DNA from: Tenacibaculum sp. MAR_2010_89
Lineage (GTDB): Bacteria > Bacteroidota > Bacteroidia > Flavobacteriales > Flavobacteriaceae
Direction of reading: 5' to 3'
Assembly: GCF_900105985.1 (NCBI RefSeq)
Contig: NZ_FNUB01000005.1
Coordinates: forward strand, 2,976,001-3,040,000
Length of the DNA: 64,000 bases
Each line of letters starts with the position of its first letter. The first letter of the stretch is position 1. This document shows positions 9,682 through 56,475 of the stretch, piece by piece. Both the position numbers and the translations under genes were made by a program. The notes beneath the pieces were generated by a model. It ran no database searches. It was not told where the DNA came from and saw only the letters and a list, made by a program, of their open reading frames with translations.

Positions 9682-10833
9682 TTAAACAGTTTTACCTCTA
9701 TATCCAAAAAATATTTGACCTAATTGAAAAACAATTTTTATCGAATCTTTCATTGACAATTTAGAACCATCAACATGAACCCATCTTTTTAAAGGCATTT
9801 CTGATATCATTTGTTTTGCTTTTGCTAATGTAAATTTTTTCCTCATTCTCATAAATATTTCTACATCAAACAACCATTTAGTCATAAATTTTTTACCAAA
9901 GAGTAACTGAACAACATCCTTATCAAAAATTTTAGCACCGCATTGAGTATCTTTAAAGTCCATTGACAATATTTTTCTTATTATAAAATTGATAGTCATA
10001 CTTATAATTGCCCTAGCTGAATCTTTAGCTATATTAGCTCCCATTCTCTGAATTCTTGACCCACTAACAATTTTAAAGTCAGACCCTTCAATACTAGCTA
10101 CCAGATCTTCAAAATCATTAAAATCTGTTGATAAATCAGCATCTAAGAATCCAATATAATCTAACGATTTATTTTCAGACAGATACAACATTCCTTGTCT
10201 TACTGCTTCTGCTTTACCTCCATTTTGTTCACAATTATATACAGTTATATAGTCTTCTCTTCCTACTTTTAACCTTTCTAATGCCTCTAATGTTTTATCA
10301 GTGCTACCATCGTTTACAAAACATAAATAATACCCCGTATACTCATCTATAAAACTTAAAAATTCTTCTTTTAAAAGTCTTTCTTCTTCATTGTAACACG
10401 GAATTACAACTCCTACTCCTCTTTTTTGAATAATAACTCTATTGCTATATGTAACTTCTTTTTTATTTATTTGTGGAGCTCCAATTAAATGCTTAGTTCT
10501 TGCACAAATTTCATTTAAACTTAATGGTTTTTTCATATAATCATTAATTCCTAACTCAAACCCTTTGATTATATTATTATCATCTACACTACCTGATAAA
10601 ACCATTATTGGTGTTGCTGATCTTGCTTCTTCTCTTATGTACTCAACAATATCTAACCCTGAAATCTCAGGCATATTAATATCTATAATTACTAAATCAG
10701 GATTAAAAGAATCAAATAGTTTTTTACCTTCTATTCCATTAGTTTCAACCTTTACATTATACCCCATTGCTGTTAACCTCTTTTCTATAGGGAGCAACAC
10801 TAATTCTTGATCATCTATTACTAGTACTTTCAT
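9682..10833 (-). CDS. Response regulator receiver domain fused to GT2 glycosyltransferase
   Basis: A 383-residue cytoplasmic-type protein of two parts. Residues 1-118 are a complete receiver domain: acidic pair D7-D8, phospho-acceptor D51 in VIIDINMP, S80, and K102 before a proline (KKP). After a short linker, residues about 138-360 form a family 2 glycosyltransferase of the dolichyl-phosphate mannose synthase type, with VVIPCYNEE, VNDGSTDKT, the DAD metal motif at 231-233 and DTQCGAKIF. No membrane helix follows. Receiver domains normally join DNA-binding or cyclase outputs, so phosphorylation-controlled sugar transfer is the natural hypothesis. No histidine kinase is adjacent. Domain calls are firm; acceptor, donor and control are unknown. 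Confidence 0.85.
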   Translation of the reverse strand: MKVLVIDDQELVLLPIEKRLTAMGYNVKVETNGIEGKKLFDSFNPDLVIIDINMPEISGLDIVEYIREEARSATPIMVLSGSVDDNNIIKGFELGINDYMKKPLSLNEICARTKHLIGAPQINKKEVTYSNRVIIQKRGVGVVIPCYNEEERLLKEEFLSFIDEYTGYYLCFVNDGSTDKTLEALERLKVGREDYITVYNCEQNGGKAEAVRQGMLYLSENKSLDYIGFLDADLSTDFNDFEDLVASIEGSDFKIVSGSRIQRMGANIAKDSARAIISMTINFIIRKILSMDFKDTQCGAKIFDKDVVQLLFGKKFMTKWLFDVEIFMRMRKKFTLAKAKQMISEMPLKRWVHVDGSKLSMKDSIKIVFQLGQIFFGYRGKTV

Positions 10834-11406: not shown

Positions 11407-11802
11407 ATGAATACGATGCAATGTCCATGTAATCCATCTATAAAATATAAAAATTGCTGTCAAAAAGCACATCAAAATATTAACTTAGCTATATCTGCTG
11501 AAAATTTAATGCGCTCAAGATACAGTGCTTTTGTACTAGGTAATATTGATTATCTACAAAAGAGTCATCATAGCAGTACAAGACCAAATAAAAAAGAGAA
11601 AAAAGAAATTTTAAAATGGTCTAAATCGGTTCAATGGATTAAACTTGAAGTTTTAAAAACATTTAGAGGTACTTCTATCGATAGTGTTGGAAATGTAGAA
11701 TTCAAAGCTTTTTTTATGGAAAATGGGAAAATAGAAGTTATCCATGAAAACTCTCTTTTCCATAAAGAAAATAATCATTGGGTTTATGTAGAGGCTATAT
11801 AA
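11407..11802 (+). CDS. YchJ/UPF0225-family SEC-C motif protein
   Basis: A 131-residue protein beginning with a SEC-C-type zinc knuckle (CPCNPSIKYKNCC, residues 6-18), followed by the YchJ signature ENLMRSRYSAFVLGNIDYL and a C-terminal NTF2-like beta-sheet domain with W-I-K-L-E-V and HWVYVEA. This is the YchJ (UPF0225) arrangement, though shorter than E. coli YchJ, which carries a second SEC-C knuckle at its C-terminus; that second knuckle is absent here. Function is unknown; SEC-C knuckles bind zinc and sometimes mediate protein contacts. Second gene of a likely two-gene unit with the preceding 119-residue protein. Confidence 0.8.
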   Translation: MNTMQCPCNPSIKYKNCCQKAHQNINLAISAENLMRSRYSAFVLGNIDYLQKSHHSSTRPNKKEKKEILKWSKSVQWIKLEVLKTFRGTSIDSVGNVEFKAFFMENGKIEVIHENSLFHKENNHWVYVEAI

Positions 11803-11901
11803 AACACTCATTTACAAAAATTTTAACATAATTTAACATTTTAATTTGTAACAAGATCAAGTTTTATTCTTCTTAATTATATATACGTATTACAATATAG
11901 T

Positions 11902-11953
11902 GTTGAGAGGAGAGGTTTTCTTATTGAAGTTGGCCTTTCCTCTTTCCCTTTTT
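11902..11953 (+). ncRNA. Putative small RNA with terminator hairpin, copy 1
   Basis: Stem AGAGGAGAGG (11906-11915) pairs with CCTTTCCTCT (11934-11943), nine Watson-Crick pairs plus one G-U, around an 18-nt loop, followed by a pyrimidine tail ending in five T. The orientation with a T-tract is the plus strand. Loop differs by one base (G for A) from copies 2 and 3. Transcription is inferred, not seen; the true 5' end could be further upstream. Confidence 0.5.
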
Positions 11954-12129
11954 AATATTTTCATATTAACTAAAAAACTACAACTATCTAGTTAACCACA
12001 TTTAACTTTACATGGATAAAAACAATCATAAACACTATTAAATCAACTACTTATACTAATTTTAACATTTAAGTTGTAACAATTTTAAGTTTCAATCTTC
12101 TAACTTATATATACGTGTTACAATATAGC

Positions 12130-12181
12130 GTTGAGAGGAGAGGTTTTCTTATTAAAGTTGGCCTTTCCTCTTTCCCTTTTT
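12130..12181 (+). ncRNA. Putative small RNA with terminator hairpin, copy 2
   Basis: Same fold as copy 1: arms 12134-12143 and 12162-12171, 18-nt loop, then TTCCC and five T. The upstream 65 bp, including TTGTAAC and GTTACAA opposing elements and TATATATACGTG, is conserved with the other copies and may be its promoter or its 5' region. Confidence 0.5.
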
Positions 12182-12354
12182 AATATAGTCATATTAACTA
12201 AAAAACTACAACTGTCTATTCAATCACTTTTAAATTTACAAGCAGAAAAAAAACATAAACACTATTAAATCAACTACTTATATTAATTTTAACATTTAAG
12301 TTGTAACAATTTTAAGTTTCAATCTTCTAATATATATACGTATTACAATATAGC

Positions 12355-12406
12355 GTTGAGAGGAGAGGTTTTCTTATTAAAGTTGGCCTTTCCTCTTCCC
12401 CTTTTT
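12355..12406 (+). ncRNA. Putative small RNA with terminator hairpin, copy 3
   Basis: Arms 12359-12368 and 12387-12396 with the same 18-nt loop as copy 2 and a tail with four C and five T. This copy lacks the downstream spacer found after copies 1 and 2, so it marks the end of the array. Confidence 0.5.
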
Positions 12407-12461: not shown

Positions 12462-12496
12462 AAAAAGCTGAATAATTTTAAATTATTCAGCTTTTT
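12462..12496. terminator. Intrinsic terminator after the porin-like gene
   Basis: A perfect 16-bp stem (AAAAAGCTGAATAATT with its complement) and 3-nt loop, with A/T runs on both sides, lies 45 bp beyond the stop at 12541 of the minus-strand gene. Confidence 0.8.
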
Positions 12497-12540: not shown

Positions 12541-13152
12541 TTAAAACCTATATGATAATCCAACTATAATTTGGTTTACTCTTGTATCAAAATTAACATT
12601 TGGAGCTCCATTACTATTAATTAATTGTGATTCAGTATCTGAAAAAGCTCTTTCCCATCTTACATCTAATCCTATCTTACCTAATTCAACACCAGCACCT
12701 AATTGAAGTCCAACTGTAAAACCACTTACATCAGTTTTTACATCGTTTAAACTTTTTAAACTAAAATCCCCATCAATAATGTATTGAAAAGATGGACCTA
12801 CAAAAACATGGGCTACCTTTAAAAATTTTTTACCTAATAATACAGGTATATCAATTTTTTGAAAATTATAACTAGCTATTTCATCTGAATTTTTAGCTGA
12901 TATTTCACTTTTTAAAGATGTATATACCAACTCAGGCTGAACATACAAACCAATTACAGGAATTTTTATACGTGATAAAACCCCAATATGAAATCCAGTT
13001 TTACTCTTAGCACCGTCTAAAACATCTGTTTTTACCTCTTGAAAAGAATCAGAATTGTAATTAATCCCCCCTTTAATACCAAACTGTATTTGTGATTGAG
13101 AAACTTGAACAACTCCTAATAAAAACAAAACTAATATTGCTATTTTTTTCAT
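12541..13152 (-). CDS. Outer membrane beta-barrel (porin family) protein
   Basis: A 203-residue protein with a cleavable signal peptide (MKKIAILVLFLLGV to SQS) and an eight-stranded barrel pattern: IQFGIKGGINYN at the start, alternating strands such as GLYVQPELVYTSL and FTVGLQLGAGVEL, and a C-terminal aromatic strand IIVGLSYRF. This is the small PorT/OmpA-like 'outer membrane beta-barrel' family common in Bacteroidota. It lies 46 bp downstream of the transketolase half and may be transcribed with it. No specific transport role can be read from the sequence. Confidence 0.85.
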   Translation of the reverse strand: MKKIAILVLFLLGVVQVSQSQIQFGIKGGINYNSDSFQEVKTDVLDGAKSKTGFHIGVLSRIKIPVIGLYVQPELVYTSLKSEISAKNSDEIASYNFQKIDIPVLLGKKFLKVAHVFVGPSFQYIIDGDFSLKSLNDVKTDVSGFTVGLQLGAGVELGKIGLDVRWERAFSDTESQLINSNGAPNVNFDTRVNQIIVGLSYRF

Positions 13153-55674: not shown

Positions 55675-56475
55675 CTTTTAATTGTTTTTTTGGGATTAAT
55701 CGTTAAATAGTACCTACTCTTTTTAGTAAAGGATTTTCGGTTTCCTCCATAATAATTAAAAATGATAATTACTCTAAAACTGAAATATTTACTTACAGCA
55801 TAGTAATTGCACATTGTGTTTCCTAAAAATAGCCTTTGAAAAAAAATGAGGAAATAGTATAATTTCTTTGAAAAATTATTAATAACAACTAGTAGTTTTA
55901 AAGTTTTATTTCAAAAACTAGCAGTACATTCATTAGTAGTAGGAATCTCCTTTTTTATTGTTTAATCATAAAATATGAGTTCTCGAATGTAAAAACTTTA
56001 GTGCATCATTTGGTTAACTAGTTTCCCTATTAAGTGTTTTTCTTTCCAAATGAAACAAATACTCTTATAGTTTATATATAAAATGCTGATTTAAATAAAC
56101 TAGAAAGGGCTTTAAAATAAACTCTCTCTATTTTTTTTAAAAAAAACTTCGAAATCATCATTTTTAACGTAATTAAAAAAATAAAAAACTTTATTTTTTT
56201 TAAAATTCTCTACTACAGAAAAACTATTCTAATGTTAAGTAATTGTTAATTTAACAACATAAGCACTCTTAATTTACATTTAAAATAGTAATCTTTTTTT
56301 AACTTCTAAAACTCTCTTTTTCTCAATGTTTACAATAGCAACACAGTTGCTTTAATAAATATAAGCACTTATTTTATACAATATAAAAACCTAAAAAACA
56401 AATACTTATGAATATTTTTAACATTTAATATTTTAGAAGATTTTATACTTTTGATTCAAATTAAAACCCTTCATT
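55675..56475. other. 801-bp non-coding, very AT-rich divergent intergenic region
   Basis: Between the divergent T9SS protein and the subtilase. All frames are short and interrupted. It holds the subtilase -7 box (56446-56453), many A and T runs, and a weak inverted repeat near 55888-55923 (CTAGTAGTTTT against AAAACTAG). No RNA gene or mobile element is recognised. Confidence 0.55.
56446..56453 (+). promoter_or_regulatory. Promoter -7 box of the subtilase gene
   Basis: TACTTTTG matches TAnnTTTG, 22 bp before ATG 56476; no TTG with usual spacing. Confidence 0.5.

Follow-up and report, generated by a model that had tools for sequence, protein, structure and literature searches.

In Escherichia coli, the small RNAs MicA and RybB are single-copy, sigma-E-dependent and Hfq-dependent, and they have known OMP mRNA targets. 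AgrA drives RNAIII, an example of a LytTR-driven regulatory RNA, and CsrB and RsmZ follow a sponge logic in which an RNA-binding protein is titrated. ECF-driven sRNAs that trim the synthesis of envelope proteins are described for Proteobacteria and Fusobacteriota in the excerpted text of one source (PMC11005410). In F. psychrophilum, an ECF motif (SM6) with a CGT box in the −10 element has been mapped, and its selected list, as excerpted, includes the putative sRNA Rfp11, an ABC ATPase and an ECF/anti-sigma pair (PMC9723704). Among the matches listed for Bacteroidota, Rfp11 was the sole candidate for an sRNA with an ECF promoter, and the excerpt presents it as putative (PMC9723704). The matches listed contained no description of the RNA reported below or of any Tenacibaculum sRNA.

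The locus studied here lies in a 64,000-nucleotide stretch of the Tenacibaculum sp. MAR_2010_89 genome (contig NZ_FNUB01000005.1; hereafter the window). Our analysis gives good support to a family of small-RNA genes that have an ECF-like promoter and occur as tandem copies; the family, apparently undescribed, has been seen so far in three genomes of a single genus. Like MicA and RybB, the predicted RNA is small and would have its own ECF-type promoter and a hairpin end, and we propose an envelope role for it; unlike them, it is arranged in tandem, matches no Rfam family and shows no sequence kinship. With RNAIII it shares, in two relatives, the location next to a LytTR regulator, but no regulator of this kind adjoins it in the window genome, and the promoter resembles the ECF class. 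FoxI and FoxJ of Fusobacterium nucleatum offer a further parallel, as ECF(sigma-E)-dependent sRNAs outside Proteobacteria that modulate envelope proteins; according to the excerpted source they belong to another phylum, FoxJ is about 156 nt long, and they were shown by experiment, whereas the window RNA is a prediction (PMC11005410). Rfp11, which we compared by its excerpted description only, is listed as a putative structured sRNA with an ECF-type (SM6) promoter ahead of it, in a member of this bacterial family (PMC9723704).

A first-pass annotation had placed three units of about 228 bp between a ychJ-like and a porin gene. This arrangement holds: the units lie in tandem and in register at 11.80–12.41 kb, with start-to-start distances of 228 and 225–227 bp. 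Upstream there is a gene for a YchJ middle-domain protein (11407–11802, + strand; PF17775, E=7.8e-31), and downstream a convergent gene for an OMP beta-barrel protein (12541–13152, − strand; PF13568, E=6.6e-21). Between the array and the latter, a palindrome with A/T flanks (12462–12496, no strand assigned; the terminator scan lists the − strand) is a probable terminator. Within its own 4.17-Mb genome, the repeat is confined to the array, as three matches with E≤9.1e-44 are followed by one at 0.26. In a synteny sample of 29 related loci that excluded the genomes G044 and G109 and was read over about 1.5 kb of flank, the OMP gene neighboured transketolase in 29/29 and adjoined ychJ in 0/29. The segment 11047–12410 of the window, which comprises a 119-aa ORF, ychJ and the array, thus looks special to its own species.

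In each unit, read on the + strand, two promoter-like boxes are followed by a leader and then by a 13-bp hairpin with a T-run. In copy 1 the predicted promoter (11846–11873) is formed by a −35-like box, TTGTAACA (11846–11853), a 14-nt spacer and a −10-like box, TCTTCT (11868–11873). The predicted sRNA extends over 11881–11953, with the start assumed 7 nt after the −10 and the end placed at the T-run. According to the fold and the stem alignment, its hairpin (11905–11944) has a 13-bp outer stem, GAGAGGAGAGGTT / GGCCTTTCCTCTT. Copies 2 and 3 repeat this plan, with TTGTAACA-N14-TCTTCT at 12074–12101 and 12301–12328, predicted sRNAs at 12109–12181 and 12336–12406 (the ends being set in the same manner) and hairpins, again from the fold and the stem alignment, at 12133–12172 and 12358–12397.

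Copies 2 and 3 hardly differ, apart from the downstream spacer that is missing from copy 3, and copy 1 has diverged further. Between copies 1 and 2, differences are scarce in TTGTAACA (0/8), TCTTCT (0/6) and the hairpin plus tail (1/52), and more numerous upstream (18/43), between the boxes (5/14), in the leader (4/29) and downstream (13/76). Boxes plus hairpin therefore differ at 1/66 positions against 40/162 in the rest (Fisher p=5e-6, for zones drawn after seeing the sequence), which bears out the earlier remark that the spacers had drifted around nearly invariant elements. Zoning of this kind is characteristic of a promoter together with a selected RNA. The TTGTAAC...TTACAA pair, which had been read as one of those elements, fared less evenly: TTGTAACA is conserved as a promoter-like box, but the pair is not a conserved stem of the RNA, since the TTACAA partner occurs in the window copies only, is absent in the relatives, and engages in a 9-bp pairing only in copy 2.

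The hairpin folds in 3/3 copies, with z-scores of −2.3, −5.2 and −3.2 for segments of 109–111 nt that include the promoter, and in each copy a UU/UU internal loop and a C-G pair lie inside the 13-bp stem. When the 11 copies of the three genomes are compared, GTTGRGAGGARAGG(T/C)TTTC...GTTGGCCTTTYCTCTT hardly varies, the terminal loop varies in length by single bases, and the core of the purine arm reads AGGAG, AGGAA or GGAGG depending on the species. In the alignment, pairing is kept in 140/140 cells of the stem. Four of the 14 stem pairs vary, on one side each and always as A-U/G-U, G-C/G-U or U-G/C-G, and the covariation test found compensatory double changes in 0/14, so the test, which the first-pass annotation had proposed, showed nothing beyond these one-sided, pair-keeping substitutions. 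As the wobble variants can pair only in RNA of the given strand, they fix the sense of the RNA.

All three window copies have one frame that is open through the hairpin, starting from a TTG and spanning 19–45 codons. In 5/5 copies of G044 that frame stops after 6 codons, and in the 3 copies of G109 it takes a different course. A conserved peptide is thus unlikely, and the array units are probably noncoding, with no reading frame common to the three species. The single-base shifts in loop length also agree with the original view that this is not a coding repeat. All three array hairpins were missing from the output of a simple terminator scan, for which its 3–8 limit on loop size is the probable reason, so we infer termination from the stem plus the T-run. 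Rfam yielded no family above the gathering cut-off at the locus (the best sub-threshold match, at 18.8 bits, fell far short of its cut-off of 100), in line with the early remark that no matching named RNA was known to the annotator.

Homologues, for which the first-pass annotation had proposed a search, turned up in two of the 165 remaining genus genomes. They are G044 with five copies and G109 with three, and both have tandem arrays (4 and 2 copies, respectively). When 146 genus genomes were searched at the nucleotide level, 4 matched; the match in G119 (E=2e-4) was rejected, as it covers only promoter bases 12–47 of the query and no hairpin is present there. With a covariance model (R1), 16 of 166 genus genomes matched at E≤0.01. 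The window genome (G000), G044 and G109 were accepted (E≤1.2e-15), although these matches are so by construction, because the model was built from their copies. On visual inspection, the 13 other genus matches (E≥1.3e-5), as well as those in 17 other genomes out of 397 of the family (E≥1.0e-5), were put down to common terminators or coding sequence. Apart from the window genome, the 397 family genomes gave no strong match, and in 395 order genomes only the own genome matched at E≤1e-4 (1/395); the two samples share members. The genus, family and order searches all used strict filters, which may miss weak matches. The informative part of this search is that no other genome matches strongly. An exact scan of genome contigs for GAGAGGAGAGGTTTTC returned 108 stretches, none with the pyrimidine arm after the motif; one loose C-rich phytoplasma match after GAGAGGAGAGGTTTTC was rejected by eye. 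Plasmids and viral contigs gave no match.

In both relatives the array comes directly after a LytTR gene of the same orientation, and a single additional copy sits behind a paralogous LytTR gene, at a distance of about 1.5 kb. These two LytTR2-linked copies lie about 160 nt after a stop codon and have no promoter box. The paralogous pairs (L126:8147–11132 and L127:8092–10526), in which each gene is followed by the hairpin, encode proteins with a HYRP motif near the N terminus. By simple hydropathy, each of the four LytTR proteins has 3–4 hydrophobic segments, so they are probably membrane-anchored. Unlike in G044 and G109, no LytTR gene adjoins the window array; the window genome holds no orthologue of the array-linked LytTR, only a partial match to a LytTR domain elsewhere (E=5e-6). 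Distant LytTR homologues occur in G139 (genus), G242 and G299 (family), genomes that are not among the R1 matches, and a repeat search in G139 found no such array. A LytTR protein with 79% identity is on record for Tenacibaculum xiamenense.

The boxes themselves recur at constant spacing, as TGTWACA-N14-TCTTCT, in 9/9 array copies, six of them in G044 and G109. ECF sigma promoters are laid out with an AAC-bearing −35, and the array boxes look like such a promoter. The array pattern, which was defined from array conservation alone, had 73 matches with at most one mismatch in the three genomes (9 of them the array copies) against 40 for the reversed control, a mild excess. TCGTCT recurred as the −10 among these matches, and this variant was picked by eye as one of 39 single-base neighbours of the box. 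For TTGTAACA-N14-TCGTCT, from which the window boxes (TTGTAACA-N14-TCTTCT) differ by one base, there were 34 matches with at most one mismatch in the three genomes; 30 of these lie outside the arrays, and the reversed control gave 5. This excess is too large to come from the by-eye choice of the variant.

Thirty loci of this class were read, of which 15 have an ORF start 8–47 nt downstream and 4 lie inside ORFs of at least 100 aa. Genes recurring behind the pattern encode DUF456 and an ABC ATPase (three species each), DUF4870, DUF4407 and a 52-aa protein (two species each), and OEP/TolC (two species, with the promoter at 172 nt, and a third with a similar upstream region); Pfam was run on one member of each except the 52-aa protein. 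Class loci include L212, L213, L217, L214, L216, L218, L237, L241, L224, L235, L226 and L236. The Tenacibaculum class TTGTAACA-N14-TCGTCT apparently marks an ECF envelope regulon. Two DUF4407 genes start 8–9 nt past the −10, so transcription would start within that distance if the start codons are right, which supports the predicted 5′ ends of the RNA.

A position weight matrix (PWM) was trained on 23 of the 30 class loci, with the arrays excluded. The array copy L219, the in-ORF loci L228, L229, L232 and L238 and, by eye, L222 and L225, which lack a convincing downstream gene, were dropped; L230, L231 and L233 were kept though the script reported no downstream ORF. The other four class matches outside the PWM are the three window arrays and one site inside a 358-aa ORF. 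Among 127902 window positions, the promoters of copies 1, 3 and 2 rank first to third (24.7, 23.0 and 21.6), and the next score is 12.7. The four G044 array promoters rank 1–4, and of the two in G109 one ranks first and the other scores 4.1. These ranks arise partly by construction, as the class was reached from the arrays. One −10 position is T in 9/9 array promoters and G in 23/23 training sites, so that a different ECF factor, perhaps a sister one, or another regulator may serve the arrays. Four of the nine array promoters (three in the window, one in G044) match the class pattern with one mismatch at most, and the other five differ also in the first −35 base.

Candidate sigma genes were drawn from 30 of the 59 sigma matches in the window genome and G044. 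At L300:1370–2991, an ECF sigma gene, a gene for a 158-aa protein and a DUF4252 gene stand in a row behind TGTAACA-N14-TCGTCG; another DUF4252 gene (L209) carries a perfect class promoter. L281/L283 are an orthologous ECF pair (88% identical) with TGTAACG-N14-TCTACT and GCTACA upstream, and L276/L277 a pair (75%) with TGTCACA-N14-TTGTC further upstream. The sigma genes of L300, L281/L283 and L276/L277 are candidates for driving the arrays.

Taken together, we lean, with modest confidence, towards reading each unit as an independent gene for an sRNA of about 60–75 nt, controlled by an ECF sigma factor and regulating in trans. The SM6 list with Rfp11 and an ABC ATPase, as excerpted, was counted in favour of this reading (PMC9723704). 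Envelope stress would release the ECF factor, which would transcribe all copies at once alongside the mRNAs of envelope proteins, and tandem duplication would serve gene dosage. Each transcript would comprise a short leader, the purine/pyrimidine hairpin and a U-rich end acting as a terminator. In trans, the conserved unpaired parts, GUUG at the stem's foot and the UUUUC...GUUGG loop, would most likely pair with mRNAs, protein binding being the less likely mode. Because the relatives have a different leader from the window copies, a shared seed must lie in the GUUG shoulder or the UUUUC/GUUGG loop, unless the RNA binds a protein. On this reading the sRNA is a candidate noncoding arm of the flavobacterial envelope response. 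A duplex scan of a limited set (50 window, 10 L126 and 11 L127 genes) gave no convincing target. The neighbouring OMP gene was outside the top six of the 50 window genes, and the best of the 10 L126 genes was LytTR1 (−8.8; mean −6.5, sd 1.6), which was not repeated in L127.

The near invariance of the arms and of the loop-proximal UUUUC/GUUGG, which goes beyond the needs of pairing and does not extend to the leader, might instead reflect a sponge, in which many rigid hairpins with a conserved UU/UU internal loop and GUUG shoulders titrate an RNA-binding protein. The multiplied copies fit this too, but each RNA has one hairpin and no repeated unpaired motif, and no candidate protein emerged, so we regard a sponge as unlikely. 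Control by LytTR, with TGTAACA...TCTTCT as an operator or part of one and the RNA as its effector, is suggested by the relatives, where each hairpin cluster comes directly after one of two paralogous LytTR genes whose products have 3–4 hydrophobic segments. Yet the window genome keeps the boxes with no orthologue of the regulator, the LytTR2-linked copies carry no such boxes, and boxes of an almost identical class stand ahead of many unlinked genes, which makes this quite unlikely.

Those LytTR2-linked copies, located downstream of a stop codon with no promoter box, are also what one would expect of passively duplicated tandem terminators or 3′-UTR hairpins of an upstream gene rather than sRNA genes, as is the hairpin plus T-run. 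The window boxes, which stay unchanged in each copy while their surroundings drift, speak against such an origin, and terminators need no cross-species sequence conservation, yet the hairpin is nearly invariant; we find this very unlikely. The first-pass annotation had also speculated about an anti-Shine-Dalgarno-like ribosome decoy on account of the purine arm, which in the window copies contains AGGAG. That idea is extremely improbable, because the arm is sequestered in the 13-bp stem, its core varies between species, and F. psychrophilum is reported, in the excerpt, to lack Shine-Dalgarno signals (PMC9723704). The other proposal made from the letters alone, namely a selected RNA in three copies, each under a promoter of its own and closed by a hairpin and T-run, is supported, with transcription and termination as predictions.

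The preferred reading, an ECF-driven sRNA acting in trans, can be extended, tentatively and with considerable doubt, to a noncoding sigma-ECF arm that Bacteroidota would have evolved independently of MicA/RybB and FoxI/FoxJ. It would be an amplified sRNA family that in some species is coupled to membrane-anchored LytTR pairs, with an ECF-driven array and a LytTR-linked copy lacking the ECF box forming a mixed ECF–LytTR–sRNA envelope circuit. Since the RNA family is compact and has a defined promoter, three copies in one species and named candidate sigma factors, the idea of a noncoding ECF arm in Bacteroidota is directly testable, and the LytTR link of the family can be tested as well. Even on their own, the consensus TTGTAACA-N14-TCGTCT and the recurring gene set are usable for annotating Tenacibaculum regulons.

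Elsewhere in the window, the − strand at 9682–10833 encodes a response-regulator receiver fused to a family-2 glycosyltransferase (PF00072 and PF00535), a candidate for an unusual phospho-controlled glycosyltransferase. Additionally, an Rfam DUF805b RNA (RF02914) was found at 55711–55750 on the − strand, with a score above the gathering cut-off.
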